DNA from: Buttiauxella selenatireducens | Lineage (GTDB): Bacteria; Pseudomonadota; Gammaproteobacteria; Enterobacterales; Enterobacteriaceae | Reading direction: 5' to 3' | Length of the DNA: 64,000 nt | NCBI RefSeq assembly: GCF_031432975.1 | Contig: NZ_CP133838.1 | Location: 4,960,001-5,024,000 of the forward strand | Notes under the pieces: model-generated | What the model was told of the DNA's origin: nothing | Database searches by the model: none | What the model saw: the letters and a program-made list of their open reading frames with translations, nothing else | Made by a program: the position numbers and the translations under genes | In this document: piece by piece, positions 1-15,501 of the stretch | Position numbering within the stretch: the stretch's first letter is position 1 | Layout: the number at the start of each line of letters is the position of its first letter

Positions 1-19
1 TCCGGAGCTTACCCTGGGC

Positions 20-1408
20 TTAACGCTCACCAACGATATGTCGGTTCTCTAAACTCGCGTTCTCTTCATCTTCCAATCTGGCCTGCTCGACCAGTTCGGG
101 ATTAATCTCACGTTTAACCTCAACACCCAGGCTGCGAAACGCATCTGCCTGAATGAGGATATTTCCGCGGCCTGAAGAGAGTTTTTTCATCGCCTGCCGA
201 TAGTTATCCTGAGCTTTATCCAGGCTTTGACCCATTGCGGACATGTCGTCAACGAAGAGGCGCATTTTGTCATACAGTCGGCTGGCGCGTTCGGCAATTT
301 GTTGCGCATTTCGGCTTTGATGCTCATAACGCCACAAATTGGCAACGGTTCGTAGCGCTACCAGCAAGGTCGTAGGGCTCACAAGCATGATGTTATTTTT
401 GAGTGCTTCGCTGATGAGTTCAGGCTGACGGTCAATCGCCAGTAAAAACGCTGGTTCGACGGGGATAAACATCAACACATAATCCAGAGAACGCAGCCCC
501 GGCAATTGCTGGTAGTCTTTGCGGCCAAGCATGCGGATATGGTTACGCATGCTGGCAATGTGCTCGTTGAGCGCACTTTCGCGAGTTAGCTCATCTTCAC
601 CGTTGTAATAACGTTCATAGGCCACCAGCGTCATCTTGGCATCGATGACGACATCTTTGCCGTGCGGCAAACGCACAATGACATCGGGCTGCATCCGGCT
701 GTTATTTTCGAGCTGAATATTGACCTGAGTTTCGTATTCATAACCCTCTCGCAAACCAGATGCCTCCAGCACACGAGTCAGCACAACCTCACCCCAGGTC
801 CCCTGAGTTTTGTTATCCCCTTTCAGAGCTTTGGTGAGATTCAGTGCCTCTTGCGCCATTTGGGCATTCAGCTGTTGAAGGCTACGGATTTCATGAGTCA
901 GCGTGTGGCGCTCGCGGGCTTCCTGACCAAAACTCTCTTGCACCTGGCGACGGAAACCATCCAGTTGTTCGCGCAATGGTGAGAGTAAGCCATTTAAACT
1001 TTGCCGGTTTTGTTCTTCAACTTTGCGGCCACTTTGCTCAAAAATACGGTTGGCGAGGTTTTCAAATTGTTCGCTCAGGCGTTGCTCGCTGTTAAGCATC
1101 TGGCGATGTTTGTCATCGGCATTAAGGCGGGTTTGTTCTAAAAGCGTGGAAAGTTCGCGGATATCCGCTTCCTGCGCACTTTTGATCTCAAGCTGGGTAC
1201 GCAATTCTCGATTGAGTTGCTCGCATTCCTCTTTCCAGTGCTGGTTTTGCTGTAACTCCTGCCGGGCCGCAGTCAGTTCACCGTAGATTTCTCGTTGCTC
1301 TTCATACAGTGCGGATTGCCTCCCGGTTGCGCGCAAACTCGCCAGCAACCATCCAGTCAGAACACCAACCAGTGCAATACCGATCCCGAATAAAATAGAA
1401 ATATCCAC
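20..1408 (-). CDS. rmuC: DNA recombination protein RmuC
   Basis: Encodes a 462-residue RmuC family protein, a nuclease-fold protein that limits recombination at inverted repeats. An N-terminal membrane segment (about residues 5-25) is followed by a long coiled coil (about 30-150) and the conserved RmuC domain, with motifs such as GNKTQG-like DNKTQGTWGEVVL and YVLMFIPVEPAFL. The E. coli protein is 475 residues, so this one has a shorter tail. The GTG at 1408 is preferred to the GTG at 1414 because AGGAG lies five bases upstream of it and the product then begins MDIS like the family. It follows udp on the same strand but is separated from it by a terminator. Confidence 0.95.
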   Translation of the reverse strand: MDISILFGIGIALVGVLTGWLLASLRATGRQSALYEEQREIYGELTAARQELQQNQHWKEECEQLNRELRTQLEIKSAQEADIRELSTLLEQTRLNADDKHRQMLNSEQRLSEQFENLANRIFEQSGRKVEEQNRQSLNGLLSPLREQLDGFRRQVQESFGQEARERHTLTHEIRSLQQLNAQMAQEALNLTKALKGDNKTQGTWGEVVLTRVLEASGLREGYEYETQVNIQLENNSRMQPDVIVRLPHGKDVVIDAKMTLVAYERYYNGEDELTRESALNEHIASMRNHIRMLGRKDYQQLPGLRSLDYVLMFIPVEPAFLLAIDRQPELISEALKNNIMLVSPTTLLVALRTVANLWRYEHQSRNAQQIAERASRLYDKMRLFVDDMSAMGQSLDKAQDNYRQAMKKLSSGRGNILIQADAFRSLGVEVKREINPELVEQARLEDEENASLENRHIVGER

Positions 1409-1507
1409 AGTCACTCCTGCAAGCCATGCTAAACATCAGCAAAATAAAATTCTGCTGTATAAATGTCCAGATGAAAAGGGATTTCCTGCGAGGCGTTACG
1501 CAAAGCG

Positions 1508-1534
1508 TAAAAATTAAGCCGGCTGCACCGGCTT
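1508..1534 (-). terminator. Intrinsic terminator of udp
   Basis: A perfect 7-bp stem (AAGCCGG/CCGGCTT, 1516-1534) with a 5-nt loop is followed on the minus strand by an AATTTTTA tract. It starts 8 bases after the udp stop codon, so it should end the udp transcript before rmuC. Confidence 0.85.
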
Positions 1535-1541
1535 ATTGGGA

Positions 1542-2303
1542 CTAGATTAAGCGACGAGCCGCTTCCACCACGATTTGCACCGCGTGGCTTTCTGTTTTTT
1601 TCATGGTTTCAGCATTCGGGATTTCTTGCTGAGTACGGTTCACAATCACGCCAGCCACCATACCCGCACGCAGGCCCTGGCTTGCGCACATGGTCAGAAG
1701 AGTCGCGGATTCCATCTCGTAGTTCATCACGCCCATCTGCTGCCACTCTTCCATGGAACCTTTATAGCGGCTCACTACGCGACCTGAGAAGGTGTCGTAA
1801 CGTTCCTGGCCTGGATAGAAGGTATCAGAAGAAGCCGTCACGCCAATGTGCGTGGTAGCACCGATAGATTTCGCCGCTTCAACCAGTGCGGTAGTACAGG
1901 CAAAATCAGCAACGGCTGGGAATTCCAGCGGTGCGAAGTGCAGGCTGGCACCGTCAAGACGCACAGACGCAGTGGTCACCAGAACGTCACCGACATTAAT
2001 ATGCGGTTGGATTGCGCCAGTCGTCCCGATACGCAGGAAAGTACGAATGCCCAGTTGCGCCAGTTCTTCCACAGCGATAGAAGTCGACGGGCCGCCGATG
2101 CCGGTCGAGCAGACAATGACTGGCTTGCCATCTAATTCAGCACGCCAGGTAGTAAATTCACGGTGGGCAGCCAATTTTACCGGCTTGTCCATCAGTACTG
2201 CGATTTTTTCCACGCGCTCTGGATCGCCCGGGACGATGGCAAGCGTTGCCCCTTGCAGATCATTTTTAGTGAGGCCGAGGTGAAAAACATCAGACTTGGA
2301 CAT
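1542..2303 (-). CDS. udp: Uridine phosphorylase
   Basis: Cytosolic nucleoside salvage enzyme that splits uridine with phosphate into uracil and ribose-1-phosphate. The 253 residues equal the E. coli length. The phosphate-binding N-terminus (IVPGDPERV, about residue 24), the central GIGGPS and GTTGAIQ motifs and [10 protein letters not shown] near 195 are typical of the PNP/UDP family. The ATG at 2303 has AGGAG a few bases upstream. The gene is monocistronic in appearance, with a CRP/CytR-type control region upstream and a terminator downstream. Confidence 0.97.
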
Positions 2304-2349
2304 AACAGACTCCTGCGTTGAATAGGTTGGCTTATCTATCTAAGGAGGT

Positions 2350-2443
2350 ACTGTACCGAACCTCTGCAAAGAATTACGTGACCGATTTCACTTTGAATGA
2401 AACAAATTACATTATTTTCAATTGAGATAGTGATCTGAATCAC
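2350..2443 (-). promoter_or_regulatory. udp promoter with two CRP sites (CytR-type)
   Basis: Two GTGA-N6-TCAC sites are seen at 2378-2391 and 2430-2443. Their centres are 52 bp apart. A -10-like TACAGT (minus strand, 2350-2355) puts the proximal site at about -41.5 and the distal one at about -93.5. In E. coli, CytR-repressed promoters such as deoP2 and udp use tandem CRP sites at nearly this spacing, with CytR held between them. CytR control is therefore inferred. The CRP-site pattern is directly visible. Confidence 0.75.
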
Positions 2444-2552
2444 ACTCAATCACAGAATGATCCATTAATCAGCCAACAATACAGCAACTCGAAGAATGGC
2501 AGGTAAAAGCTATAGTTATCGCACTGCGTTAATTCTGGTCAGGAGAATGCCA

Positions 2553-3380
2553 ATGAAAGAAGAAAAATCCATAGATAAATTGCCGGGCGGAAATTATGCA
2601 CCAGCGGCCTCCCCTCTGGCTTCAACCCTCTTGCATACCCCAGATGACGCGATTCTGGCGGGGGAAACGTCAATTCCTACTCAGGGTGAACAGATGCCTG
2701 CCTGGCACGCCAGGCCAAAAGGCGCTGAAGGTTCTTTGCCCATCGTGATTGTAGTGCAGGAAATCTTCGGCGTGCATGAACATATTCGCGATGTTTGCCG
2801 CAGATTAGCACTGGAAGGATACCTGGCCATCGCGCCAGAACTCTATTTCCGCCAGGGCGATCCCAATGATTTTGCAGATATTCAGACGCTTTTAAGTGGA
2901 TTAGTCTCTAAAGTTCCCGATGCACAGGTGTTGGCGGATCTCGATCACGTCGCCAACTGGGCGGCCAGGAACGGCGGCGATGCTCATCGCCTGATGATTA
3001 CCGGTTTTTGTTGGGGTGGACGAATTACCTGGTTATACGCCGCACATAATCCGCAGTTGAAAGCAGCCGTTGCCTGGTATGGAAAACTGTTGGGCGAGAA
3101 ATCTCTTAATTCACAACATCATCCAGTCGATATCGCTATTAATCTGAACGCGCCAGTACTTGGACTTTACGGCGGGCTAGACACCGGGATTTCGCAGGAA
3201 AGTGTAGAAACCATGCGCCATGCTCTGCGCGCTGCGAATGCCAACGCAGAAATCATCGTCTACCCGGAAGCGGGCCACGCGTTTAACGCAGATTATCGCC
3301 CGAGCTACCATGCCGATTCAGCAAAAGATGGCTGGCAGCGCATGCTGAAGTGGTTTGAACGATATGGCACGAAGAAGTAA
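2553..3380 (+). CDS. dlhH: Dienelactone hydrolase family protein DlhH
   Basis: A 275-residue alpha/beta hydrolase of the dienelactone hydrolase family (E. coli YsgA/DlhH, 271 residues). The nucleophile elbow GFCWGG supplies Cys153, and YPEAGHAF supplies His242. The acid residue is probably Asp in YGGLDTG. The longer frame beginning upstream lacks support. The ATG at 2553 has AGGAG with a 7-base spacer. Its physiological substrate is not established. It is transcribed divergently from udp and followed by its own terminator. Confidence 0.92.
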   Translation: MKEEKSIDKLPGGNYAPAASPLASTLLHTPDDAILAGETSIPTQGEQMPAWHARPKGAEGSLPIVIVVQEIFGVHEHIRDVCRRLALEGYLAIAPELYFRQGDPNDFADIQTLLSGLVSKVPDAQVLADLDHVANWAARNGGDAHRLMITGFCWGGRITWLYAAHNPQLKAAVAWYGKLLGEKSLNSQHHPVDIAINLNAPVLGLYGGLDTGISQESVETMRHALRAANANAEIIVYPEAGHAFNADYRPSYHADSAKDGWQRMLKWFERYGTKK

Positions 3381-3388
3381 TACAAGCC

Positions 3389-3413
3389 GCCCTGGCTCAA
3401 GCCAGGGCTTTAT
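3389..3413 (+). terminator. Intrinsic terminator of dlhH
   Basis: An 8-bp perfect stem (GCCCTGGC/GCCAGGGC) with a TCAA loop is followed by TTTAT, 8 bases after the dlhH stop. It marks the boundary between the conserved backbone and the accessory insert. Confidence 0.8.
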
Positions 3414-3541
3414 CCCTGATATTAATAAGCGTACTGCATCACATTCCTGAGCCTGCTTTTTTTACTCTTGCCAGCACCCAGCATCAAAAAATTTGCCGCA
3501 GCAAACACCTTCATGGCCCTGTTCACACTTTCCCTAACAGG

Positions 3542-3567
3542 TTTGATTTTTCTGCTCAGAAATCAAA
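3542..3567. promoter_or_regulatory. Inverted repeat upstream of the accessory operon
   Basis: TTTGATTT and AAATCAAA flank a 10-bp centre about 110 bp before the amidase gene. The symmetry and the A/T-rich arms resemble a LysR-type operator, and a LysR gene closes the cluster. That assignment is inference. The 3414-3673 gap otherwise contains A/T-rich sequence with no gene that I can see. Confidence 0.35.
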
Positions 3568-3673
3568 ATTTTCGACGCTGCACACCAAACTATTTCTCTG
3601 TTTAATACATCAGTTCTCCTCAATACTCACAACAGACACAACGAATTCTCACTTGGTGAACAGGAGATTTACG

Positions 3674-4339
3674 ATGACTCACGCTTTTGATGCCCAGCCT
3701 TTTGCACTGCCGTTTGATCCCAAAAGCACCGCACTGGTGATGATTGATATGCAACGCGATTTTGTCGAAGCCGGTGGTTTTGGCGAAGCGTTAGGTAATG
3801 ATGTTTCACTGGTGCGTAGCGCAATCGAGCCGTGCAAACGTGTTCTGGATGTCGCCCGCCAGGAAGGCCTGTTAGTGATTCATACTCGCGAAGGACATCG
3901 CCCTGACCTCACCGACTGCCCACCAGCAAAACTCACGCGCGGCGGTAAGACGTTTATCGGCGAAGCAGGCCCAATGGGCCGCACGCTGGTGCGCGGTGAA
4001 GCCGGTCACGACATTATTCCTGAGCTGTACCCTATTGCCGGCGAGCCGATTATTGATAAGCCAGGCAAAGGCGCGTTTTACCAGACTGACCTGCACCTGA
4101 TCCTGCAAAACAGCGGTATCAAAACGCTGATCGTCTGCGGCGTCACCACTGAAGTTTGCGTGAATACCACCGTTCGTGAAGCCAATGACCGCGGCTACGA
4201 ATGCATCATTCCTGAAGACTGCGTCGGTTCTTACTTCCCTGAATTCCAGAAATACGCCCTTGAGATGATCAAAGCCCAGGGCGCAATTTTCGGCTGGGTG
4301 AGCGACGCCAACAACATCATTAAAGGTCTTAAAGGCTAA
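3674..4339 (+). CDS. Isochorismatase-family amidohydrolase, biuret hydrolase-like
   Basis: A 221-residue cysteine hydrolase of the isochorismatase fold. The likely triad is Asp25 (MIDMQRDF), Lys129 (DKPGKG) and Cys162 (TTEVCV). HTREGHRPDL, RGE and DIIPELYPI also recall rhizobial biuret hydrolase BiuH, and the C-terminal FGWVSD recalls RutB. It therefore probably hydrolyses a C-N bond of a small ureide, releasing ammonia or a carbamate. The exact substrate cannot be read from sequence. The ATG at 3674 has AGGAGA six bases upstream, whereas upstream TTG/GTG codons have none. It is the first gene of the operon, five bases before the DUF2877 gene. Confidence 0.85.
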   Translation: MTHAFDAQPFALPFDPKSTALVMIDMQRDFVEAGGFGEALGNDVSLVRSAIEPCKRVLDVARQEGLLVIHTREGHRPDLTDCPPAKLTRGGKTFIGEAGPMGRTLVRGEAGHDIIPELYPIAGEPIIDKPGKGAFYQTDLHLILQNSGIKTLIVCGVTTEVCVNTTVREANDRGYECIIPEDCVGSYFPEFQKYALEMIKAQGAIFGWVSDANNIIKGLKG

Positions 4340-4344
4340 ACAGC

Positions 4345-5220
4345 ATGGCTATCGTCACCCTTACGGCAAACTCATGCGGATATTTAACCGCCAGGCGTTT
4401 GCCAGAAATTATTCAGGTTCATAGCTGTTTTTCACACGCTCTCAACCTGATCGACGACGATGGCCATCTTTTTACCCTGTTGAGTAGCGAGAAATATCAG
4501 AATCTGCCCGATGCCGTGCGCGTGACGCAGCCGGAAAACTGGGACTGGCGGCAGCAGGCAAGCCGCGGAGAGACAGTTCGCACAACCGCAGGAAAATTAC
4601 AGGCGCGGCACTGGCAGGTCGATATCAGCGCAGCGACTGTCTGGCAACCCAGGCTTGGCGGTTCATCAGTAAGCCTGAACGCGCTGCCAGACGCGCTGCG
4701 CCATTACGAAACACTCAGCTCGCAGCTTTTTTTGTTCTGCCTTGAGCACCAGGTTGAAAGTGATTTGCTTTGGGCGTGCAGCCCATTAATCCCCAGCGAA
4801 AGCAAACGCCAGTTGGCTCCCGCAGAAGCGATGGAACAGCTCGAATCTCAGGTGGCACAGCTTATCGGTTTTGGGCGCGGCCTCACCCCGGATGGCGACG
4901 ATTATCTGCTGGGATACATGGCTGCACTTTGGCCCTGGAAGCTAAACGCGGGGCTCAGGGAACATCAGCAAAGGCTGCATCAGGCCATCAGCATAAATCT
5001 GCCGCGCACCACGGATATCAGCCGCCATTACCTTAACCGGGCGCTGGAAGGCCATTTTTCGCAGCCGGTTTGCGAGTTGCTCGAAAAACTTACGGCACGG
5101 ACACCCACGGCAGACCTTATCGCCGCCACGGAACACGTTATGCAGTTTGGTGCGTCCTCCGGCGTGGACTGCCTCGCAGGAATATTACACGGGCTGCGAA
5201 ACATCAACACAGCTCATTGA
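4345..5220 (+). CDS. allH: DUF2877 protein, AllH (YlbF)-like carbamoyltransferase subunit
   Basis: A 291-residue DUF2877 protein. The family signatures FGRGLTPDGDD (about 178-188) and FGASSGVDCLAG (near 270) correspond to GLTPSHDD and SGAD of E. coli YlbF, which is 271 residues. In E. coli, YlbF together with FdrA and YlbE forms oxamic transcarbamylase (AllFGH), which phosphorolyses oxalurate to oxamate and carbamoyl phosphate. Here all three families are again encoded together, so a subunit of an equivalent enzyme is the simplest reading. Overall similarity to E. coli YlbF looks low, so the substrate may differ. The start lies five bases after the amidase stop. Confidence 0.75.
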   Translation: MAIVTLTANSCGYLTARRLPEIIQVHSCFSHALNLIDDDGHLFTLLSSEKYQNLPDAVRVTQPENWDWRQQASRGETVRTTAGKLQARHWQVDISAATVWQPRLGGSSVSLNALPDALRHYETLSSQLFLFCLEHQVESDLLWACSPLIPSESKRQLAPAEAMEQLESQVAQLIGFGRGLTPDGDDYLLGYMAALWPWKLNAGLREHQQRLHQAISINLPRTTDISRHYLNRALEGHFSQPVCELLEKLTARTPTADLIAATEHVMQFGASSGVDCLAGILHGLRNINTAH

Positions 5221-5238
5221 AAAAACACCACTGACTCA

Positions 5239-5261
5239 CGCAGCGCGGCAAACGCTCTGCG
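5239..5261 (+). other. Hairpin between the DUF2877 gene and fdrA
   Basis: A stem of 9 bp with one mismatch (CGCAGCGCG against CGCTCTGCG) and a 5-nt loop sits in the 97-bp gap before fdrA. No T tract follows, so a processing or stabilising role within the operon mRNA is more likely than termination. Confidence 0.4.
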
Positions 5262-5317
5262 CGGGATCGCTTTGCCCGGATTTCAACATTCGGGAATAAA
5301 GAAACAGGCATAACCTA

Positions 5318-6877
5318 ATGAAATCAGAGCATAAAGTTTTTAACAATCTCTATCAGGATTCCGTTTCCCTGATGCAGATTTCCGCCCAAATCAGCAAGCT
5401 GCCCGGCATTCAGCAGGCCTCCGTGGTGATGGGTACCGCCACCAACCTTGAGCAACTGCATGATGCAGGCCTTGGGGATAACATCGCCGCCGGGCCAAAT
5501 GACCTGGTGATCGCCGTACAGGGCGAAGACGACGCCTGCCAGGAAGCGCTGGATCTGGCGCATCAGCGCCTGAACAGCAAGCCAGCAGAAAGCGGCAACG
5601 ACGGCGTGCGCGCACCGGATTTAGTGAGTATGGAAATGGCGCTGGAAAAAGAGCCTGAATCCAATCTGGCACTGATTTCCGTACCGGGCGACTACGCCGC
5701 CGCCGAAGCGATTAAAGCCCTGAATCTTGGCATGAACGTGATGATGTTCAGCGATAACGTCAGCGTGGCGCAGGAAAAAGCGATTAAAACCCTCGCCCGT
5801 GAACGCAACCGTATCGTAATGGGCCCGGACTGCGGCACCGCGATTGTGAACGGTATTCCGTTGGGCTTTGCCAACGTGGTGAACCGTGGCGCAATTGGCA
5901 TCGTCGGCGCATCCGGCACTGGCGTTCAGGAAGTCACCTGCCGTATCGACCAACTGGGCGCGGGTATTTCCCAGGCGCTGGGCACCGGCGGCCACGATTT
6001 AAGTGAAGAGATTGGCGGCATTTCCATGCTGTTTGGCCTGCAAGCGCTGGCAGAAGACCCGGCGACTCAGGTCATCGTCTTGATCTCTAAACCACCCGCA
6101 AAAGCCGTTGCCGAACGGATTCTGGAACAGGCGCAAGCGGCGGGTAAACCGGTCGTGGTGAACTTCCTTGGTGCGAAGCCAGAAGACATTACCCGCCCAG
6201 GCGTGACCGCAGCGACCACGCTTGCCAGCGCGGCAGACCTCGCCGTTGCGTTGCTGAATAAAACTGAACTACGCCAGCACGCAACTCGTCCTGATGAAGC
6301 ACAGCTCGCGATGCTGGAACAAGCCTGCTCAACATTGCCAGCCACGCGTCAGCTTATTCGCGGTGTCTTTGCCGGCGGCACTTTCTGCTACGAAGCACAG
6401 CTTCTGTGCCAGCAAAACGGCTTTACCGCATCATCCAACACGCCGGTTTCCGGCAACAGCAAACTGGCGGATATCTGGAAAAGCAGTGGTCACACGCTGA
6501 TCGATATGGGCGATGACGATTTCACGCGCGGCAAACCGCACCCGATGATCGACCCTACGCTGCGCAACCAGCGCATTCTTGACGAGCTAAACGATCCGCA
6601 AACCGCCGTGGTGCTGTTTGACCTGGTACTCGGCTATGGCGCGTCGGAAGACCCGGCTGCCGGGCTGCTGGAGCTGCTCGCCCAAATTGATAAACAGAAA
6701 TTGCCGGTCCTCATCGCTCACGTCTGCGGCACTGAAGCCGACCCACAGCAGCGTAACCGCCAGATTGAAGCCCTGCGTGAGGCAGGCGTGATTGTCGCCG
6801 ATTGCAACGCGCAAGCCGCCGTTTGGGCAAGCAGCGTGGCACTGATTCAGGCTAAGAAAAACGGAGCATCCGCATGA
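5318..6877 (+). CDS. fdrA: FdrA family protein, oxamate carbamoyltransferase subunit-like (AllF)
   Basis: A 519-residue FdrA protein with the CoA-ligase-like Rossmann fold. It carries NVMMFSDNV and VMGPDCGT (about residues 144-178), VGASGTGVQEV (near 202) and GRGKPHPMIDPTLRN-like HPMIDPTLRNQ in the C-terminal half. E. coli FdrA (AllF) has 555 residues. FdrA is now known as a subunit of oxamic transcarbamylase. The protein should help transfer a carbamoyl group from a ureide to phosphate in the cytosol. Its stop overlaps the next start (ATGA), which implies translational coupling to the DUF1116 partner. The ribosome-binding site is weak (AGG nine bases or more upstream). Confidence 0.88.
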   Translation: MKSEHKVFNNLYQDSVSLMQISAQISKLPGIQQASVVMGTATNLEQLHDAGLGDNIAAGPNDLVIAVQGEDDACQEALDLAHQRLNSKPAESGNDGVRAPDLVSMEMALEKEPESNLALISVPGDYAAAEAIKALNLGMNVMMFSDNVSVAQEKAIKTLARERNRIVMGPDCGTAIVNGIPLGFANVVNRGAIGIVGASGTGVQEVTCRIDQLGAGISQALGTGGHDLSEEIGGISMLFGLQALAEDPATQVIVLISKPPAKAVAERILEQAQAAGKPVVVNFLGAKPEDITRPGVTAATTLASAADLAVALLNKTELRQHATRPDEAQLAMLEQACSTLPATRQLIRGVFAGGTFCYEAQLLCQQNGFTASSNTPVSGNSKLADIWKSSGHTLIDMGDDDFTRGKPHPMIDPTLRNQRILDELNDPQTAVVLFDLVLGYGASEDPAAGLLELLAQIDKQKLPVLIAHVCGTEADPQQRNRQIEALREAGVIVADCNAQAAVWASSVALIQAKKNGASA

Positions 6878-8289
6878 ACACCTTATTTAATCAGCCGCTG
6901 AAAGTGGTCAACGCTGGGCTGGCAGGATTTGCGAACAACATCCAGAAAGTCGGCGGTGAAGTGACTCCGTTGAACTGGCAGCCGCCAGCCCTCGGCAACA
7001 TTGAAGCCGGGTTGGATCTGGCGAGTTTACTGCGTCACCCGCTGGTCGAGCAGGCAAACCAGGTGGCGATGGAACGTTATCTGAACGCGCAGCCGGTGCT
7101 GGTAGACGTGATGTTCGCAGCAGAAGCGATTCCGGCGATGGCTGAACGCAAACTGATTCTGCATTCCGGTCCGCCAATCAGTTGGGACAACATGTGCGGC
7201 CCGGTACAAGGGGCGATTGTCGGCGCGATCCTGTTTGAAGGCTGGGCCACCAACCACGAAGAAGCTGAAGCTCTCGCGAAAAGCGGCGCCATCGACCTCG
7301 AGCCGTGCCACCACTACAACGCCGTCGGCCCAATGGCTGGAATTATCAGCCCGTCCATGCCGCTGTGGGTAATTGAAAACAAAACCAACGGCAAACGCGC
7401 GTTCAGTAATTTCAACGAAGGGCTGGGCAAGGTTTTACGTTTCGGTGCCAACAACGAAGAAGTTCTCAATCGTCTGCACTGGATGCGCAATGAACTGGCT
7501 CCGGCACTGAAAAAAGCAGTGCGTCAAATCGGCGAGCTGGAGCTGAAACCGCTGATGGCGCAAGCGCTGCACATGGGCGATGAAGTGCATAACCGTAACG
7601 CCGCTGCCACAGGCCTGCTTTGCAAGCGTCTGGTGCCTGCGCTGCTGGCCTGTAACCTGCCGCTGGAAACCGTGCAAAACGCGGTGGCCTTTATTACCGG
7701 CAACGACCACTTCTTCCTCAACCTGTCGATGGCCGCCTGTAAAGCGATGATGGATGCCGCCGCCGATGTGCCGTTCAGCTCGATGGTCACGGTGATGGCG
7801 CGCAACGGTGTGAACTTCGGCATTCGTTTGTCCGGCACCGGCGACCAGTGGTATCAGGCTCCGGCGAATCCGGTCGAAGGCCTTTTCTTCCCTGGCTACG
7901 GCGTGGACGACGCGGCTGCGGATTTGGGCGACAGCGCGATTACCGAAACCGCAGGCGTCGGTGGCTTTGCGATGGCGTCTTCACCAGCCATCGTGAAATT
8001 CGTCGGCGGCACACCTGCCGATGCCACCAACAACAGCCGTCGCATGCAGGCGATCGTCATTGGCTCGAACCCAGCATTTACGCTGCCCGCGCTGAACTTC
8101 GCGCCGACCGCCGCTGGCATCGACGCCCGCAAAGTCGCTGACCGTGGCATTTTGCCCATCATCAACACCGGCATCGCCCACAAACAGGCGGGCGTCGGCC
8201 AGATTGGGGCCGGGATCACCACAGCACCGATGTCGTGCTTCGTGGACGCGATTCAGGCACTTGCCCAATCTGTAGGAGAAAAAAAATGA
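6874..8289 (+). CDS. allG: DUF1116 protein, AllG (YlbE)-like carbamoyltransferase subunit
   Basis: A 471-residue DUF1116 protein, matching the YlbE (AllG) family, which is 419 residues in E. coli. Conserved stretches include HSGPPISWDNMCGP (near 97), NRNAAATGLL (near 240), VTVMARNGVNFGIR and NPVEGLFFPGYG (about 305-345). With FdrA and DUF2877 it completes the three-part carbamoyltransferase set. It overlaps fdrA by four bases and the kinase gene by four bases, so the three are probably translated in coupled fashion and in similar amounts. Confidence 0.85.
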   Translation: MNTLFNQPLKVVNAGLAGFANNIQKVGGEVTPLNWQPPALGNIEAGLDLASLLRHPLVEQANQVAMERYLNAQPVLVDVMFAAEAIPAMAERKLILHSGPPISWDNMCGPVQGAIVGAILFEGWATNHEEAEALAKSGAIDLEPCHHYNAVGPMAGIISPSMPLWVIENKTNGKRAFSNFNEGLGKVLRFGANNEEVLNRLHWMRNELAPALKKAVRQIGELELKPLMAQALHMGDEVHNRNAAATGLLCKRLVPALLACNLPLETVQNAVAFITGNDHFFLNLSMAACKAMMDAAADVPFSSMVTVMARNGVNFGIRLSGTGDQWYQAPANPVEGLFFPGYGVDDAAADLGDSAITETAGVGGFAMASSPAIVKFVGGTPADATNNSRRMQAIVIGSNPAFTLPALNFAPTAAGIDARKVADRGILPIINTGIAHKQAGVGQIGAGITTAPMSCFVDAIQALAQSVGEKK

Positions 8290-9245
8290 GCAAACCTTTA
8301 GCTGTCGTCGCGGTAGGCGGCAACGCGCTGATCCAGGACGAGAGTCACAACAGCATTCCGGATCAGTACGAAGCCGTAATGGAAAGCGTGAAGCACATTA
8401 CCGACATGGTGGAAGCCGGATGGGATCTGGTGCTGACTCACGGCAACGGCCCGCAGGTGGGCTTTATTCTGCGCCGCTCAGAAATGGCAAGCCGCGAAGT
8501 GGCTCCGGTGCCGCTGGATTACGCGGTAGGTGATACCCAGGGCGCGATTGGCTACATGTTCCAGAAAGCGCTGCATAACGAACTGATGCGTCGCGGTATC
8601 AACAAGCCAGTTGTCACCCTCGTGACGCAGACTTTAGTGAGCAAAGACGATGTTGCATTTGCCAACCCGTGCAAACCGGTCGGCGCGTTTATGGACGAGC
8701 AAACCGCGCAACTGCGCCAGAAAGAACTCGGCTGGACAATGATGGAAGACGCCGGTCGCGGCTGGCGTCGCACCGTACCTTCCCCTGCTCCGCTTGAAGT
8801 TATCGAGCGCGAAACGATCGCCAATCTGGTCAGCCAGGGCTACATCGTCATCGCCTGCGGCGGCGGCGGCATTCCTGTGATTCGCGACGAAAAGCGCGAG
8901 CTGAAAGGCGTTGAAGCGGTAATCGACAAAGACCTGGCCTCCGCGCTGCTCGCAAGCCAGCTCGGTGCCGATCTGTTGCTGATCCCAACCGGCGTGGAAA
9001 AAGTGGCGATTAACTTCGGCACCCCACAGCAGGAATGGCTGGACACGCTGACCGTCGCCAAAGCGCAGGAGTTGCTGGATCAAGGGCAATTCGGCGTTGG
9101 CAGCATGCAGCCGAAAGTGGAAGCGATTCTCGGCTTTGTGAATGCCAGCCAGAAGCAGGGCAAAAATGCCAGCGGTCTGATCACCAGCCCGCAGGCCATT
9201 AAAGCGGCTCTTGCTCACCAAAGCGGCACCTGGATCGCACCTTAA
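8286..9245 (+). CDS. arcC: Carbamate kinase
   Basis: A 319-residue amino-acid-kinase-fold enzyme that makes ATP from carbamoyl phosphate and ADP, releasing carbamate (ammonia plus CO2). Motifs in order are VAVGGNAL (7-14), THGNGPQVG (near 52), YAVGDTQGAIGYM, IACGGGGIPV (near 200), VEAVIDKDLAS and FGVGSMQPKVEA (near 275), the normal carbamate kinase set. The ATG at 8286 has AGGAG seven bases upstream, and ATGA overlaps the preceding stop. The same pairing with fdrA-type genes occurs in the E. coli allantoin region (allK/ybcF). It is the energy-conserving step of the cluster. Confidence 0.95.
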   Translation: MSKPLAVVAVGGNALIQDESHNSIPDQYEAVMESVKHITDMVEAGWDLVLTHGNGPQVGFILRRSEMASREVAPVPLDYAVGDTQGAIGYMFQKALHNELMRRGINKPVVTLVTQTLVSKDDVAFANPCKPVGAFMDEQTAQLRQKELGWTMMEDAGRGWRRTVPSPAPLEVIERETIANLVSQGYIVIACGGGGIPVIRDEKRELKGVEAVIDKDLASALLASQLGADLLLIPTGVEKVAINFGTPQQEWLDTLTVAKAQELLDQGQFGVGSMQPKVEAILGFVNASQKQGKNASGLITSPQAIKAALAHQSGTWIAP

Positions 9246-9259
9246 TCGTATTTATTGAT

Positions 9260-9277
9260 GGGGCGGAAAACCGCCCC
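9260..9277 (+). other. GC-rich hairpin after the carbamate kinase gene
   Basis: A perfect 7-bp stem (GGGGCGG/CCGCCCC) with an AAAA loop sits 15 bases after the kinase stop and is followed by TTATGACAAATTTT. The T tract is displaced, so it may be a weak terminator or a 3'-end stabiliser lowering expression of the last two genes. Confidence 0.5.
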
Positions 9278-9304
9278 TTATGACAAATTTTCTGGAGAAC
9301 TATC

Positions 9305-9697
9305 ATGGCTCAAACAACTTTACTCGCAGTCAACGGCACCCTGATGCGCGGCCTGAAACTCAACCCGAACATGCAAAAAGCAGGCGGTGTGTTCGTGCGT
9401 GAAGCCCGTACCGACGCGCACTACCGCATCTGGAGCATTAACGACGACCATCCAGGCATGATCCGCGTGATGCAAGGCGGCACAAATGTCTCGCTGGAAA
9501 TCTGGGAGCTGCCGTTAGCCAGCTTCGCCGCACTGCTGGAAAGCGAGCCTGCCGGGTTATCCATCGGCAAAGTCAAACTCGAAGACGGCAGCGAAGTGCT
9601 GGGCGTGCTGGCGGAAAACTGGCTGACCGAAGGGCAAAAAGAGATCACCGATCTGGGATGCTGGCGCAAATACACCGGCCATTTCCATACTGCGTAA
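9305..9697 (+). CDS. Stand-alone domain related to the C-terminus of allophanate hydrolase (AtzF)
   Basis: A 130-residue protein beginning with NGTLMRGLKLN (about 9-19), then HYRIWSINDDHPGMIRV, LEIWELP and IGKVKLEDGSEVLGVL. This pattern is that of the C-terminal domain of allophanate hydrolases, which has a gamma-glutamyl-cyclotransferase-like fold. In two-domain AtzF-type enzymes that domain decarboxylates N-carboxycarbamate left by the amidase domain. No amidase domain of the AtzF kind is encoded here, so the protein must act alone or with the amidase at 3674. TGGAG lies before the ATG. Function by homology only. Confidence 0.75.
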   Translation: MAQTTLLAVNGTLMRGLKLNPNMQKAGGVFVREARTDAHYRIWSINDDHPGMIRVMQGGTNVSLEIWELPLASFAALLESEPAGLSIGKVKLEDGSEVLGVLAENWLTEGQKEITDLGCWRKYTGHFHTA

Positions 9698-9721
9698 AAC
9701 GCCATTCAGAGGGAACAAGAT

Positions 9722-10945
9722 ATGCGTAAGACCCAAGAGAGTCTCAACACGGCGTCAGGATTACGTATTGCCATGATTTTGCTGGGCATTGCCGTCACGC
9801 CCGTGCTGCTGTCGTCTTCAAGCCTCGGCAACCAGCTTTCCAGCTCTAGTCTGATAAGCGTCGTATTGCTGGGCGGCCTGATTCTGACCGTGTTGTCGGC
9901 GATTACTATCAGCGTGGGCGAAAAAGCCCGTCTGCCCACTTACGGCATTGTGAAATATCCGTTTGGCGAGAAAGGCGCGATTGCTATCAACATTCTGATG
10001 GCCATCAGCCTGTTTGGCTGGATTGCGGTGACCGCCAATATGTTCGGCCATTCAGTGCATGATTTACTGGCACAACATGGGCTGGAACTGCCGGTGCAAC
10101 TGCTGGTAGCTGCGGGCTGTGTGATTTTTGTTGCCTCAACCGCGTTTGGTTTTGCGGTGCTGGGTAAAGTGGCGCAGTTTGCCGTGCCGGTGATTGCGCT
10201 AGTGCTTTGCTACATTCTTTACGTCGCAACGCATACCGAAGTTGCCGCACCCGCTGCGTTCACCAGCATGAACACCGGCGTCGCAGTATCAACCGTGGTC
10301 GGCACAATCATCGTGCTGGTTGCCACGCTGCCCGATTTCGGCAGTTTCGTGCATAACCGCAAACATGCGCTGATCGCCGCAGGCTTGACGTTCCTGGTGG
10401 CTTACCCGCTGCTGTATTGGGCAGGTGCGACGCCAAGCGCCATCTCCGGTCAGGGTTCTTTACTCGGCGCAATGGCGGTATTTGGTGCCGTTTTGCCTGC
10501 CGCTGTGCTGCTGATTTTTGCCTGCGTCACCGGTAATGCCGGGAATATGTTCCAGGGTACGCTGGTGGTTTCCACCCTGGTGACCCGTTTCCCTAAATGG
10601 CAGATCACCGTCGCACTGGGGATTTTATCCGCCATCGTCGGCAGTATGGATATCATGTCCTGGTTTATCCCGTTCCTGCTGTTCCTCGGGATTGCCACGC
10701 CGCCGGTTGCCGGGATTTATATCGCTGACTTCTTCCTTTATCGCCGTAACGGTTACGAAGAATCGGTGCTGACCCGCGACCCGCAAATCAAAGTGCTGAC
10801 CTTCGTTGCCTGGATTCTGGGCGCCGCAGTTGGCTTTATGACGGTCAATGGGCTGTTTACGCTCACCACCATCCCTTCAGTTGATTCAATTGCGGTGGCC
10901 TGCGTCGCTTATGCGGTGTTGAGCCGTATGAGTAACCGCAGCTAA
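9722..10945 (+). CDS. NCS1-family (cytosine permease-like) transporter
   Basis: A 407-residue inner-membrane protein with about 12 hydrophobic segments. Features shared with CodB-type NCS1 carriers are the N-terminal helix rich in small residues, PDFGSFVHN in the middle, and TPPVAGIYIADFFLYRRN near residue 325. NCS1 carriers import nucleobases, hydantoins, allantoin and similar ring or ureide compounds by ion symport. Placed at the end of the operon, it probably brings in the compound degraded by the upstream enzymes. The start follows an AGAGGGA-type site and lies 24 bases after the previous stop. Confidence 0.88.
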   Translation: MRKTQESLNTASGLRIAMILLGIAVTPVLLSSSSLGNQLSSSSLISVVLLGGLILTVLSAITISVGEKARLPTYGIVKYPFGEKGAIAINILMAISLFGWIAVTANMFGHSVHDLLAQHGLELPVQLLVAAGCVIFVASTAFGFAVLGKVAQFAVPVIALVLCYILYVATHTEVAAPAAFTSMNTGVAVSTVVGTIIVLVATLPDFGSFVHNRKHALIAAGLTFLVAYPLLYWAGATPSAISGQGSLLGAMAVFGAVLPAAVLLIFACVTGNAGNMFQGTLVVSTLVTRFPKWQITVALGILSAIVGSMDIMSWFIPFLLFLGIATPPVAGIYIADFFLYRRNGYEESVLTRDPQIKVLTFVAWILGAAVGFMTVNGLFTLTTIPSVDSIAVACVAYAVLSRMSNRS

Positions 10946-10972
10946 TTCCTGGGTATACTTGGTGCAACTATA

Positions 10973-11002
10973 AGTGGCTAGGCTCGAAACAGTTTAGCCA
11001 CT
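10973..11002. promoter_or_regulatory. Inverted repeat between the permease and LysR genes
   Basis: AGTGGCTA (10973-10980) and TAGCCACT (10995-11002) form perfect 8-bp arms around 14 bp, 21 bases upstream of the LysR start. No T tract follows. It could be an autoregulatory LysR operator or the folded 3' end of the operon mRNA. I cannot separate the two. Confidence 0.4.
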
Positions 11003-11023
11003 CAACACCAGCCAGGAAGCCAC

Positions 11024-11932
11024 ATGTTTATCTCCGATGAAACCATCCGCGTTGTCCATCTGGTCGCAAAATATCAGAGCATCACCACCGCCGCCGAGCA
11101 GTTGAACAAGGTGCCATCCGCTATCAGTTACACCATCAAAAAAGCCGAGGAGAGCATTGGCGCGGAGCTGTTTATCCGCAAGGGCCGCTATATCGAACTA
11201 ACGCCTGCGGGTAGCTATTTCATCGAACACAGCAAAACCATTCTTGGCGATCTTGATGCGCTTAAACGCAACACGGTGCTGATTCATGACGGGATTGAAA
11301 AAGAGCTGTCTGTCGCAGTGAATAACATTATCCCCACCGCCACGCTGGTTGAGTTTATCCGGGATTTTGAGCGCGAATTTTCCTCCACCACGCTGACGGT
11401 CAATCTTGAGGTGTACAACGGCTGCTGGGACGCGCTTTACAGTAAACGCGCTGATTTAGTGATTGGCGCGCCGCATTCAGTGCCGAGCACGGAAGGGATC
11501 ATCAGCGAACCGATTGGTCAACTGGAGTGGGATTTCGTGGTCAGCCCACAGCACCCGCTTGCCGGGCATCTCCAGCCGCTGGAAAACGCCGAGCTGCGCC
11601 AGTATTCCGCTATCTGCATCCGCGACACCGCCGTTAACTTCGCCCCACAACAGGCGTGGCTGCTGGAAGGTCAAAAACCGCTGTTTGTCCCGGACTTCGC
11701 CACCGCTATTGCGCTGATCCAGCAAAATGTCGGCATCGGTTATATTCCGCACCATCTGGCGCTGCCTCTGCTTAATAACGGTCAATTGCTGAAAAAACCG
11801 ATGCAGGAACATAAACACGCCACCAAATTATTCCTGGCCGCCCGTTCTGATGGCATGGGCAAAGTTTGCCGTTGGTGTATGGATTATTTGTTGCAGCCTG
11901 CGGTGAGTGGGAAGTTGGGTGGTGGGAGTTGA
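11024..11932 (+). CDS. LysR-family transcriptional regulator, AllS-like
   Basis: A 302-residue LysR regulator with an N-terminal winged helix-turn-helix (SITTAAEQLNKVPSAISYTI, about 19-38) and a periplasmic-binding-like effector domain from about 90 onward. The phrases ISYTIKKAEE, NNIIPTATLVEF and GIGYIPHHLA resemble AllS, the activator of E. coli allantoin genes. It lies in the same direction as the catabolic genes, 78 bases after the permease, so it may be co-transcribed or have its own promoter. It most likely senses the ureide substrate and switches on the operon starting near 3674. Confidence 0.88.
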   Translation: MFISDETIRVVHLVAKYQSITTAAEQLNKVPSAISYTIKKAEESIGAELFIRKGRYIELTPAGSYFIEHSKTILGDLDALKRNTVLIHDGIEKELSVAVNNIIPTATLVEFIRDFEREFSSTTLTVNLEVYNGCWDALYSKRADLVIGAPHSVPSTEGIISEPIGQLEWDFVVSPQHPLAGHLQPLENAELRQYSAICIRDTAVNFAPQQAWLLEGQKPLFVPDFATAIALIQQNVGIGYIPHHLALPLLNNGQLLKKPMQEHKHATKLFLAARSDGMGKVCRWCMDYLLQPAVSGKLGGGS

Positions 11933-11945
11933 TTAAACGCTTTGC

Positions 11946-12158
11946 CCCTCACCCCAGCCCTCTCCCAAAGGGAGAGGGAGGAAAGAGTGTCTTTTCGCTA
12001 ATGGACGAGGGAGAAAAGAGTGTCTTCTCGCTAATGGGCGAGGGAGAAAAGAGTGTCTTCTCGCTAATGGGCGAGGGAGAAAAGAGCGTCTTCTCGCTAA
12101 TGGGCGAGGGAAAAAAGAACGTTCCCTCTCCCGTTTTGGGAGAGGGTTAGGGTGAGGG
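11946..12158. repeat. Palindromic element with four 33-bp tandem units
   Basis: Outer arms of 21 bp (11946-11966 and 12138-12158) are inverted copies with two mismatches, of the type CCCTCACCC..CCCTCTCCC. Inside are four tandem 33-bp units at 11985-12017, 12018-12050, 12051-12083 and 12084-12116. Units 2 and 3 are identical. Units 1 and 4 differ by a few bases. The element fills the space between the converging LysR and metE genes and would fold into a large hairpin at both 3' ends. It resembles the non-autonomous intergenic elements common in enterobacteria. A half copy lies at 58560. Confidence 0.85.
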
Positions 12159-12165
12159 TAAATAA

Positions 12166-14427
12166 TTAAGCGCTACGCAAGTTCTGCGCCGCCTTCACCA
12201 TGTTCGCCAGCGCCTGGCGGGTTTCTGGCCAGCCGCGAGTTTTCAGGCCGCAGTCTGGGTTAACCCACAAACGCTCTGCCGGGACGCTCTCCGCCGCTTT
12301 CTTCAGTAACGCTTCAATCCATTCCACGCTTGGCACGTTCGGCGAGTGAATGTCATACACACCCGGCCCGATTTCGTTTGGATATTCGAACTCTTTGAAC
12401 GATTCCAGCAGGTCCATATCGGAACGTGAAGTTTCAATGGTGATCACGTCCGCATCCAGCGCCGCAATGGAATCCATGATGTCGTTGAATTCGCAGTAAC
12501 ACATGTGGGTGTGGATCTGCGTGTCATCGCGTACCACAGCGGCGTTCAGGCGGAAAGCTTCCACGCCCCATTCCAGATACGCCTGCCAGTCGGACTGACG
12601 CAGCGGTAAACCTTCGCGCAGCGCGGGTTCGTCGATCTGAATGATGCCAATGCCCGCAGCTTCCAGATCCGCCACTTCGTCACGCAACGCTAAGGCGATT
12701 TGCTTCGCGATGGTTTCGCGCGACACGTCTTCGCGTGGGAATGACCAACACAGAATCGTCACCGGGCCCGTCAACATGCCTTTTACTGGTTTGTCAGTCA
12801 GGGATTGCGCGTACTTTGCCCACTCCACGGTGATCGCTTCCGGGCGGCTGATATCACCAATCACGACCGGCGGTTTCACACAGCGGGAGCCGTAGCTCTG
12901 CACCCAGCCGTTTTGCGTGAAGACGAAACCGTCGAGGTGTTCGCCAAAGTATTCCACCATGTCGTTGCGCTCGGCTTCGCCGTGTACCAGCACATCCAGC
13001 CCCAGACGTTCCTGTTCAGCTACCGCTTGTTTGATGTGTTCAGCGATACCAGTGCGATAGTTGTTGGCATCCAGATTTCCCTTTTTGAAGTCCAGGCGCA
13101 GGCCGCGGATTTCAGTGGTTTGCGGGAAAGAACCGATAGTTGTTGTCGGCCACGCTGGCAGGTTAAAGCGCTGACGCTGCGCCACGGCACGAGCGGCATA
13201 GTCGCTGTGACGTTGGCTGTCTTGCGCGGTAATGGTCGCCAGGCGCTGTTCTACTGCCGCGTTATGTACGCGGCTTGAATGGCGACGAGCCTGAATTGGC
13301 GCGCTCCATTCCACCAGCTTTTCGGTGTTACCGCTGTTTAACGCTTCAGTCAGCAGTGAAAGCTCAGCACATTTTTGCAGGGCGAAGGCAAACCAGCTTT
13401 TCACTTCCGCATCCAGACGCGTTTCCACACTGAGATCGATTGGGCTGTGTAGCAGGGAGCAAGAAGAGGCCACCCACAGATCACGTTTCCCGACAATTGC
13501 CTGCAATTGTTGATATTTTTCCGTCAGATCGGCACGCCAGACGTTACGCCCGTTAATTACCCCCGCAGACAGCAACCAGTCAGCCGGAAGCTGCTGATGC
13601 AACGCGTTGATATCATCTTTACCGTGTACGAAATCGACGTGCAGACCCTGGACCGGCAGCGCGGTGATGGTGTTCAGGTTTGGCGTGACGCCTTCGAAAT
13701 AGGTGGTCAGCAACAGCTTAACGTTACCCTTCAGCGCGTCATAGGCAGGCTTGAACGCGTCCAGCCACGCCTGCGGCAACTCCAGCACCAGCGCGGGCTC
13801 GTCGATTTGCACCCATTCGATGCCGCGTTTTGCCAGTTCAGCCAGAACCTGTTGGTAAACCGGCAGAATGTCGTTGAGCAAGCTCAGGCGGTCGAACGGC
13901 TCACCCTTCACTTTACCCAGCCACAGATAGGTGACCGGGCCAAGCAGCACAGGTTTTACGTTGTGGCCCAGTGCCAGCGCTTCGTCCACTTCATCCAGAA
14001 GCTGTGTCCAGGTCAGTTTGAACTGCTGGCCTTGAGTAAATTCCGGCACCATGTAGTGATAGTTGGTGTTAAACCATTTCGTCATTTCTGCGGCAGCAGC
14101 AGGCTTGCCAGTCGGCGCGCGACCACGGCCCAGACGGAATAATGTGTCGATATCTACACTGCCGTCCGCGTTCTGATGACGAGCCGGTACATTGCCAAGT
14201 AACAAGCTGGTGGTCAGAACGTGATCGTACCAGGCGAAATCGCCCACTGGCAGTAACTCAACGCCGGACTGTTTTTGTTGATCCCAGTGACGAGCACGCA
14301 GTTCGCGGCCCACCGCCAGTAATTCTTCCTGGGTGGAATTGCCTGCCCAGTAACTTTCTTGTGCCTTTTTCAGTTCGCGGCGCAGGCCAACACGGGGGAA
14401 GCCGAGGGTGTGATTTTTGATTGTCAT
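12166..14427 (-). CDS. metE: Cobalamin-independent methionine synthase
   Basis: 753 residues, identical in length to E. coli MetE. It transfers a methyl group from 5-methyltetrahydropteroyl-triglutamate to homocysteine in the last step of methionine synthesis. Zinc ligands are visible as THMCYC (His641, Cys643) and [10 protein letters not shown] (Cys726), with the C-terminal barrel motifs [10 protein letters not shown] and [16 protein letters not shown] precedes the ATG. It is divergent from metR, with met boxes between them. The 3' end abuts the palindromic element at 11946-12158. Confidence 0.98.
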
Positions 14428-14460
14428 TTTCTTTCCTCAATATCATTATTCGACGCATTT

Positions 14461-14484
14461 AGCCGTCCAGATGTTTACACATCT
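14461..14484. promoter_or_regulatory. MetJ operator: three tandem met boxes
   Basis: Consecutive 8-mers AGCCGTCC, AGATGTTT and ACACATCT each match the met box AGACGTCT at six of eight positions. Tandem boxes at 8-bp spacing are the known binding arrangement of the MetJ-S-adenosylmethionine repressor. The position between metE and metR fits repression of both genes when methionine is plentiful. Confidence 0.75.
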
Positions 14485-14535
14485 ATATTGTGCAGGTACT
14501 GTATATTCCTCAAGCGCAATTTGCTCATGCCGAAG

Positions 14536-14548
14536 TGAAGGACTTTCA
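14536..14548. promoter_or_regulatory. MetR-type site overlapping the metR start
   Basis: TGAA-N5-TTCA, the MetR recognition pattern, ends on the first base of the metR start codon. Only one clear copy was found in the 120-bp metE-metR gap. It could serve autoregulation. Its part in metE activation is uncertain because of its position. Confidence 0.4.
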
Positions 14549-15501
14549 TGATCGAGATCAAACACCTGCGGACGCTCCAGGCGTTACGAAATTGCGGCTC
14601 TTTAGCCGCCGCCGCCGCCGCGTTGCATCAAACCCAATCGGCTCTCTCTCATCAGTTCAGCGATCTGGAGCAACGGCTTGGGTTCCGCCTGTTTGTCCGT
14701 AAAAGTCAGCCTCTGCGCTTTACTCCGCAGGGCGAAGTGCTATTGCAACTGGCAGAACAAGTGTTGCCGCAGATAAGCCGTGCGCTTCAGGCCTGCAACG
14801 AACCGCATCAGACAACGTTGCGTATCGCCATCGAATGCCATAGCTGTATTCAGTGGCTGACCCCGGCACTGGAGAACTTCCACAAAACCTGGCCGCAGGT
14901 GGATCTGGATTTCAAATCAGGCGTGACGTTCGACCCACAGCCCGCGCTACAGCAAAGCGAGCTGGATATCGTTTTGACATCAGACATTCTGCCGCGCAGC
15001 GGTCTGCACTATTCGCCGATGTTTGATTATGAAGTGCGCCTGGTGCTGGCAACGGATCATCCATTAGCCAACAAAACACGAATTGATCCGGAAGATTTGA
15101 GCAGTGAGACATTGTTGATTTACCCGGTGCAGCGCCAGCGTCTGGATATCTGGCGGCATTTCCTGCAACCGGCAGGCGTCAGCCCGTCGCTGAAAAGTGT
15201 GGATAACACGTTGTTGTTAATTCAGATGGTGTCGGCGCGCATGGGCATTGCCGCGCTGCCGCATTGGGTGGTAGAGAACGTAGAGCGCCAGGGTCTGGTG
15301 GTGACTAAAACCCTGGGCGAAGGATTGTGGAGCCGGTTGTACGCCGCCGTGCGCGATGGCGAGCAGCGTCAACCGGTGACAGAAGCGTTTATTCGCTCGA
15401 CGCGCTCACACGCTTGCGAGCATCTGCCGTTTGTGAAGAACGCGGAGCGACCCAACGGCGATGCACCCATAGCGAGGCCATTATCACCGTCCCACCAATG
15501 A
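14548..15501 (+). CDS. metR: LysR-family regulator MetR
   Basis: 317 residues, the E. coli length. The N-terminal helix-turn-helix ([20 protein letters not shown], about 17-36) and the co-inducer domain are intact. MetR uses homocysteine to activate metE, metA, metF and glyA. It is divergent from metE. Its last 113 bases overlap the 3' end of bioP on the opposite strand, so the C-terminal tail (about 37 residues) is encoded antisense to that gene. The start is the ATG next to AAGTGAAGGACT, with AAGG as ribosome-binding site. Confidence 0.97.

Follow-up and report, generated by a model that had tools for sequence, protein, structure and literature searches.

The operon at positions 3674–11932 on the + strand of the window, a 64,000-nucleotide stretch of Buttiauxella selenatireducens (contig NZ_CP133838.1, positions 4,960,001 to 5,024,000, assembly GCF_031432975.1), probably, though far from certainly, encodes an ATP-yielding route of triuret degradation. 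A TrtA-type amidase would open triuret, a complex of FdrA, AllG and AllH would phosphorolyse the product, and a carbamate kinase would recover ATP. All substrates and reactions given below are predicted from gene families, residue signatures, linkage and distribution, which are read directly from the sequence. Gene families were called by Pfam and NCBIfam profile searches. The operon comprises eight co-directional genes flanked by dlhH and metE, as a preliminary description of this DNA had stated. They likely form a single operon: the genes for FdrA and AllG (6874–6877) and for AllG and carbamate kinase (8286–8289) overlap by four bases (ATGA), and the remaining gaps measure 5 to 97 bases. The "several" four-base overlaps of that description come down to these two. 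Its central idea, a ureide operon in which AllFGH-type phosphorolysis is paired with carbamate kinase, is supported by the gene families, with the FdrA tree setting the operon apart from E. coli AllFGH, and its assignments of FdrA, DUF2877, DUF1116, carbamate kinase, an AtzF C-domain-like protein, an NCS1 permease and a LysR regulator all hold, except that the histidine of AtzF is absent from the AtzF-like protein. Its placing of the genes outside any allantoin locus is right for the operon site, but the host has an Hpx allantoin locus elsewhere.

The first gene (3674..4339, + strand) encodes a 221-residue TrtA-type amidase with an isochorismatase fold, resembling triuret hydrolase (PF00857, 162 bits). 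Its closest match in the PDB is 6xix, an entry titled 'Cysteine hydrolase', which we take to be apo TrtA. The protein is 58% identical to TrtA and 53% and 54% identical to two BiuHs, and it scores 274.7 bits with the BiuH model NF050097, short of the cut-off of 370. At all six published sites that distinguish TrtA (structures 6XJE and 6XJ4) from BiuH (PMC7948467), it carries the TrtA residue (F35, N41, A134, E160, Y187 and I205) and none of the BiuH residues (Y, Y, S, D, T and V). The catalytic D24, K129 and C162 and the substrate contacts F29, E72, K132 and Q202 are retained. A 120-row amidase alignment contains 97 TrtA-type and 23 BiuH-type (YY[S/A]DTV) rows; 92 of the 97 read FN[A/S]EYI without deviation, and exactly FNAEYI is found in 81 of the 120 rows, including that of the window. 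Fourteen columns separate TrtA-type proteins from BiuH (at 85% or more), and a single one, a conservative V/L exchange, separates the TrtA-type proteins of transcarbamylase loci, i.e. those with AllFGH-type genes, from other TrtA-type proteins (at 80% or more). A TrtA enzyme would be expected to prefer triuret to biuret by a factor of about 10,000, and a triuret hydrolase of the TrtA type is the best reading of these signatures. Identity as a biuret hydrolase is rejected on the NF050097 cut-off and the six residues. The preliminary description had called the amidase biuret-hydrolase-like and had listed biuret, oxalurate and a hydantoin-type compound as candidate substrates; the first of these claims is not supported, and triuret, the best candidate, was missing from the list.

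The next three genes encode the subunits of an AllFGH-type complex. These are an AllH-family protein of 291 residues (formerly DUF2877; 4345..5220, +; PF11392, 89 bits against a cut-off of 25; no match in the NCBIfam search), the AllF-family protein FdrA of 519 residues (5318..6877, +; NF004760, 503 bits against 433; PDB match 3dmy, 'Protein fdrA') and an AllG-family protein of 471 residues (formerly DUF1116; 6874..8289, +; PF06545, 324.8 bits; PDB match 3clq, uncharacterized). All three exceed the curated cut-offs of NF004760, PF06545 and PF11392 within one operon. The fifth gene (8286..9245, +) encodes a catabolic-type carbamate kinase of 319 residues, which scores 360.6 bits with TIGR00746 (cut-off 358.25) and 385.5 bits with NF009007 (cut-off 266). 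Its start is ATG 8286, preceded by AGGAG; the open reading frame list had GTG 8235. In E. coli, AllFGH converts oxalurate to carbamoyl phosphate and oxamate (PMC11326118).

The FdrA of the window belongs to a lineage of its own. A quick tree built from 63 FdrAs, with support from the Shimodaira–Hasegawa-like approximate likelihood ratio test (SH-aLRT) only, puts it in a clade of TrtA-linked proteins of Pseudomonadota, Actinomycetota, Myxococcota and Chloroflexota, and K-12 AllF and YahF fall in clades separate from it. Orthology to the E. coli AllFGH system, the comparison that the preliminary description had put forward, is therefore rejected, since the window FdrA does not group with K-12 AllF. 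The TrtA-linked label, carried by 36 of the 63 rows, changes three times on the tree, compared with 20.8 times in shuffles, in a sample biased by the many rows that were found via TrtA. For one locus inside the lineage, L063, the 20 kb examined contain no TrtA. When sampling starts from FdrA, all 11 matches of at least 50% identity outside its own genome adjoin TrtA. Among matches below 50%, those in genomes G039 and G013 are linked to TrtA, the yah- and all-type loci L004 and L064-L068 show no TrtA linkage in the 20 kb read, and linkage of the remainder was viewed across 4.5 kb only. Wider reads place TrtA next to the FdrA loci L062 and L034.

Linkage was also followed from the amidase, in 80 TrtA-type loci, the best of 580 relatives in a GTDB genome scan; the proportions hold for near relatives only. 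AllFGH-type genes are present in 20 of these loci (FdrA in 19; L114 has AllG only), BiuH in 21, and both in three. Across whole genomes, and with kinship ignored in the Fisher tests, BiuH is found in 7 of 31 transcarbamylase-type TrtA genomes versus 34 of 58 others (p 0.0016), AtzF over its cut-off in 11 of 31 versus 50 of 58 (p 1.9e-6), and neither enzyme in 15 of 31 versus 4 of 58 (p 1.2e-5). A first comparison subset of 30 was hand-picked and enriched for loci where BiuH adjoins TrtA (17/30, against 18/58 in the full group); extending it to the full 58 lowered the contrast (BiuH from 23/30 to 34/58, neither enzyme from 0/30 to 4/58). The comparison leaves out L080 and L073 (the latter from the same assembly as G058), assigns L134 and L140 to neither group (an AllG-like match of 41–43% without FdrA), and scores G530, with an AtzF-like match below the cut-off, as AtzF-negative. 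Hand thinning of the 31 to one per group yields 20 genomes, four with BiuH, five with AtzF and 12 with neither. These statistics are weakened by the shared ancestry of the genomes; their direction fits a replacement in which FdrA/AllG/AllH would stand in for BiuH and AtzF after TrtA.

The proposed route begins with import of a ureide, most likely triuret, by the NCS1-type permease. The TrtA-type amidase would hydrolyse triuret to 1-carboxybiuret and ammonia, and the FdrA/AllG/AllH complex would then phosphorolyse an N-acylurea. In the favoured version, carboxybiuret and phosphate would give carbamoyl phosphate and allophanate; in the alternative, decarboxylation would yield biuret, and biuret and phosphate would give carbamoyl phosphate and urea. 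The carbamate kinase would convert carbamoyl phosphate and ADP to ATP, ammonia and CO2, and phosphorolysis in place of the hydrolytic BiuH–AtzF route would save one ATP per triuret. The lone AH_C protein, which consists of an allophanate-hydrolase C-terminal domain (AH_C), may act on an N-carboxylate of the route, either carboxybiuret or allophanate. Carboxybiuret is favoured as the substrate of the complex because it closely resembles oxalurate, the AllFGH substrate: it can be regarded as oxalurate that has gained one NH, and allophanate would relate to oxamate likewise. Loci L077 and L079 carry TrtA, AllFGHK and AtzF in genomes without BiuH over its cut-off and without urea carboxylase (at 1e-200), where the complex would supply allophanate from carboxybiuret. 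A urea product is also plausible in the Buttiauxella host, in which urease was not found (threshold 1e-100) and urea carboxylase and AtzF, encoded side by side, could use urea. The allophanate version has the edge over the urea version. We put at about even the chance that this FdrA/AllG/AllH lineage constitutes a third outlet for triuret, in which carboxybiuret (or biuret) phosphorylases would feed ATP formation by carbamate kinase and the lone AH_C would be a new enzyme of the route.

The AH_C protein (9305..9697, +; 130 residues) scores 137.8 bits with the fold family PF21986 and matches PDB entry 5c5z, a crystal structure of an E. coli AH_C. Pfam and NCBIfam detect AH_C alone in it and no amidase domain of allophanate hydrolase. 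Over the part that aligns, the 5c5z protein, which we take to be c4763, is identical to the AH_C encoded by locus L069 of E. coli. Among the 20 transcarbamylase loci, L090 is the only one in which no AH_C was seen; in the other 19 the domain stands alone (12 loci), is joined to the kinase (3) or to the amidase (1), or forms part of AtzF (3). Among all fetched loci, AH_C is fused to carbamate kinase in L060, L061, L076, L081 and L083 and to the amidase in L124 and L062. The 36 lone or fused proteins, including that of the window, carry the motif NGTLMRG, whereas 23 AtzF C-domains carry GAH with an invariant histidine. In our reading, NGTLMRG recalls the GTL motif of gamma-glutamylcyclotransferase-like folds, and the GAH histidine is presumably the catalytic residue of the AtzF C-domain. 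This domain is said, after Fan et al. 2013, to decarboxylate N-carboxycarbamate with that histidine. Judged by its motif, the lone AH_C is a distinct subfamily to which the AtzF reaction should not be transferred. Identity of the lone AH_C with TrtB, the known carboxybiuret decarboxylase, is not supported: in one genome, with a TrtA that shares 92% identity with that of Herbaspirillum, the small neighbour of TrtA looks AtzH/HpxZ-like by eye, and the only AH_C is that of AtzF.

A route via biuret is a minor but serious contender. Here AH_C would decarboxylate carboxybiuret, the complex would produce carbamoyl phosphate and urea, and urea would be recycled by urea carboxylase and allophanate hydrolase. 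AH_C adjoins TrtA in the rearranged operons L078, L080, L085, L106 and L114, the two are fused in L124 and L062, L117 combines TrtA, BiuH and AH_C without AllFGH, and the host has urea carboxylase and AtzF adjacent. However, in E. coli (G648), Aeromonas and other carriers neither urease nor AtzF was found, and an allophanate product fits better in L077 and L079, which have AtzF but no BiuH or urea carboxylase. It is less likely that the operon houses two separate routes, TrtA for triuret and AllFGH with carbamate kinase as an ordinary oxalurate phosphorylase (oxamic transcarbamylase). In E. coli, the activity of AllFGH on oxamate/oxalurate is proven (PMC11326118), nitrifier contigs with trtA, biuH, atzF and allFGHK are interpreted in this way in PMC12625717, and loci L106, L114 and L128 combine BiuH with AllFGH-type genes. 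Nevertheless, the window FdrA lies outside the AllF clade, the operon has no oxamate-handling gene, and 15 of the 31 genomes of this type are without another known enzyme for the TrtA product. Moreover, the host already possesses an Hpx-type allantoin/oxalurate locus with a PuuE-type allantoinase, an allantoate amidohydrolase fused to OHCU decarboxylase, HpxZ, an AtzE-family amidase and a gamma-glutamyltransferase-like protein slightly below its cut-off. Another AllFGH-type set in the host is of the yah kind. Because the host owns both, the window operon would probably be redundant there in an oxalurate role. A third FdrA, of the 45% class, is present in another genome of the same species (G009).

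The two remaining alternatives involve a substrate other than triuret. NCS1 permeases often carry nucleobases and hydantoins, and the operon could serve another N-acylurea derived from a pyrimidine or a hydantoin. A pyrimidine role has been suggested for region GR29 (PMC12928451). This is improbable, as Pfam and NCBIfam find no ring-opening enzyme in the operon and the triuret-binding residues are kept in the amidase. Least probable of all is a biuret operon, in which the amidase would convert biuret to allophanate and the complex would convert allophanate to carbamoyl phosphate and carbamate. The amidase does belong to the BiuH/TrtA superfamily, as its NF050097 score indicates, and allophanate is in principle a possible substrate of the complex, but that score lies below the BiuH cut-off.

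Several points weigh against ATP-yielding triuret degradation. We know of a single characterised TrtA, to which the window amidase is 58% identical. BiuH is retained in 7 of the 31 transcarbamylase-type genomes, and in L106, L114 and L128 it shares the locus with AllFGH-type genes. The trait changes three times on the amidase tree, which offers one to three independent pairs, too few for a test, and some of the genomes are incomplete metagenome-assembled genomes (MAGs), so absences are soft. Two TrtA-linked FdrAs, those of L078 and L106, fall nearer to YahF. Urease was not found (1e-100) in 14 of the 31 genomes, including E. coli (G648) and three of the Aeromonas type; a version of the route that makes urea would lose half of the nitrogen in such genomes. 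Finally, the histidine invariant in 23 of 23 AtzFs is leucine in the window AH_C and in 97% of the 36 lone or fused proteins, so the lone AH_C may not perform AtzF chemistry.

The last two genes encode a permease and a regulator. The 407-residue NCS1-type permease (9722..10945, +), a probable ureide importer, scores 52 bits with PF02133 (cut-off 23.5) and 146 bits with the cytosine permease model, short of its cut-off of 326. The LysR-type regulator (11024..11932, +; 302 residues; PF00126 and PF03466) resembles PunR and AllS, with sub-threshold scores of 283 bits (cut-off 345) and 224 bits (cut-off 372), respectively. The operon has a guanine plus cytosine content of 56.4%, compared with 50.9% and 51.2% in its flanks. 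In an alignment of 7 upstream regions, the segment 3500..3673 (+) contains blocks conserved in relatives: CAAAATTTTCG, AATACTC and GGAGAT. A consensus promoter scan of this segment gave 3 matches against 3.9 expected by chance, and counts in the promoter and terminator consensus scans were at or below chance; an Rfam scan of positions 1-15000 at the gathering threshold found no known RNA regulator. A possible CRP-like half site (TTTGA-N6-TCACA) is seen by eye in the upstream regions of the E. coli copies and, in weaker form, in the window. Between the LysR gene and metE, a 33-base tandem repeat of 4.5 copies (93% matches) occupies 11970-12118.

A different permease is frequent elsewhere. In 30 of the best 80 loci, TrtA has a member of an orphan family (L119:10721-12307 and relatives) no more than 300 bases away; the family is likely one of ureide permeases. 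The tested members have no Pfam match apart from one at chance level (E 0.27), two have no NCBIfam match at 1e-20, and the one searched has no sequence match in the PDB. A predicted model, with a predicted local distance difference test (pLDDT) score of 87.5, matches the UraA/SLC26 fold at a template modelling (TM) score of about 0.5. The family shares 38% identity with the permease that the yah locus of the host encodes (L004:7839-9386). In that yah-type locus, a permease of 515 residues lies between AllG and carbamate kinase, where K-12 (L155) has the small yahH only; the yah permease was possibly lost by deletion in the E. coli line.

Within the genus, 4 of 12 genomes carry the operon, every one at the dlhH–metE site. 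A search for gene order of the kind envisaged in the preliminary description finds this gene set, with its order kept, also in other families and phyla, a recurrence that sets the arrangement beyond chance. In E. coli Combat2C1, further island genes come after the eight. Matches to the amidase gene of this strain are present in 1547 of 5426 complete E. coli genomes, with at least 80% of the gene covered in 1544 of them. A near-mode search with the whole operon also returns 1547 E. coli genomes, and nowhere is 80% of the operon covered because identity is about 75%. In BL21-AI, the eight genes are complete between ysgA, the dlhH homologue, and metE; in K-12 MG1655, ysgA adjoins metE and the operon is absent from the site. 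All eight genes are also present on pCh101, a conjugative IncK2/Z plasmid of E. coli (L153). Among plasmid records, 83 of 264 matches have an amidase 80-90% identical to that of the window. Locus L196 (G713) holds an AllFGHK-type TrtA set and, within 20 kb, a second set of TrtA, BiuH and AtzF. A 3.3 kb contig of a Bathyarchaeota MAG (L103) encodes a TrtA-type amidase, the orphan permease and a carbamate kinase.

In E. coli, an island of extraintestinal pathogenic strains (ExPEC) between metE and ysgA includes these genes (PMC3349570), and region GR29 contains them too, with a pyrimidine-related role discussed in PMC12928451. The eight genes and the site are the same as here, and triuret is not assigned as their function in the passages of these two sources that the analysis covered. 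A literature search covering open-licence papers found no biochemistry of the whole operon; the gene order is already known from genomes, and the proposed function is the new part. With the TrtA-TrtB-BiuH-AtzF pathway of Herbaspirillum (PMC7948467), the operon shares the residue type of the first enzyme and carboxybiuret as the predicted intermediate. Unlike that pathway, it has no BiuH, complete AtzF or second amidase, and it adds FdrA/AllG/AllH, carbamate kinase and the lone AH_C. With E. coli AllFGH and AllK (PMC11326118) it has in common the three subunit families and the kinase step, but its FdrA belongs to a separate clade and is linked to TrtA rather than to allantoin genes, and its presumed substrate is carboxybiuret or biuret in place of oxalurate. 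K-12 yahEFGI and the host yah-type locus likewise encode AllH, FdrA, AllG and carbamate kinase outside an allantoin locus; they differ in having no TrtA or AH_C, a different permease and a YahJ-like amidohydrolase. Contigs of complete ammonia oxidisers (comammox) and ammonia-oxidising archaea (AOA) share the co-location of trtA/biuH with allFGHK, and in PMC12625717 triuret and oxalurate are taken as separate pathways, unlike here. The search of open-licence papers returned none that puts an AllFGH-type enzyme downstream of TrtA.

Triuret is formed on uric acid oxidation and has been detected in human urine (PMC7948467). If the proposed function is correct, this occurrence in urine would give carriers an ecological reason for the operon, and triuret would be a nutrient for BL21, for over a quarter of the E. 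coli with complete genomes and for carriers of the conjugative plasmid. BL21, which has the operon, and K-12, in which the site is empty, form a natural pair for testing. A gene set widespread in E. coli, and for which no function was assigned in the literature found, would gain a substrate. The young AllFGH transcarbamylase class would be widened from oxalurate to polyureas, and the hydrolytic triuret/biuret pathway would acquire an ATP-conserving counterpart.

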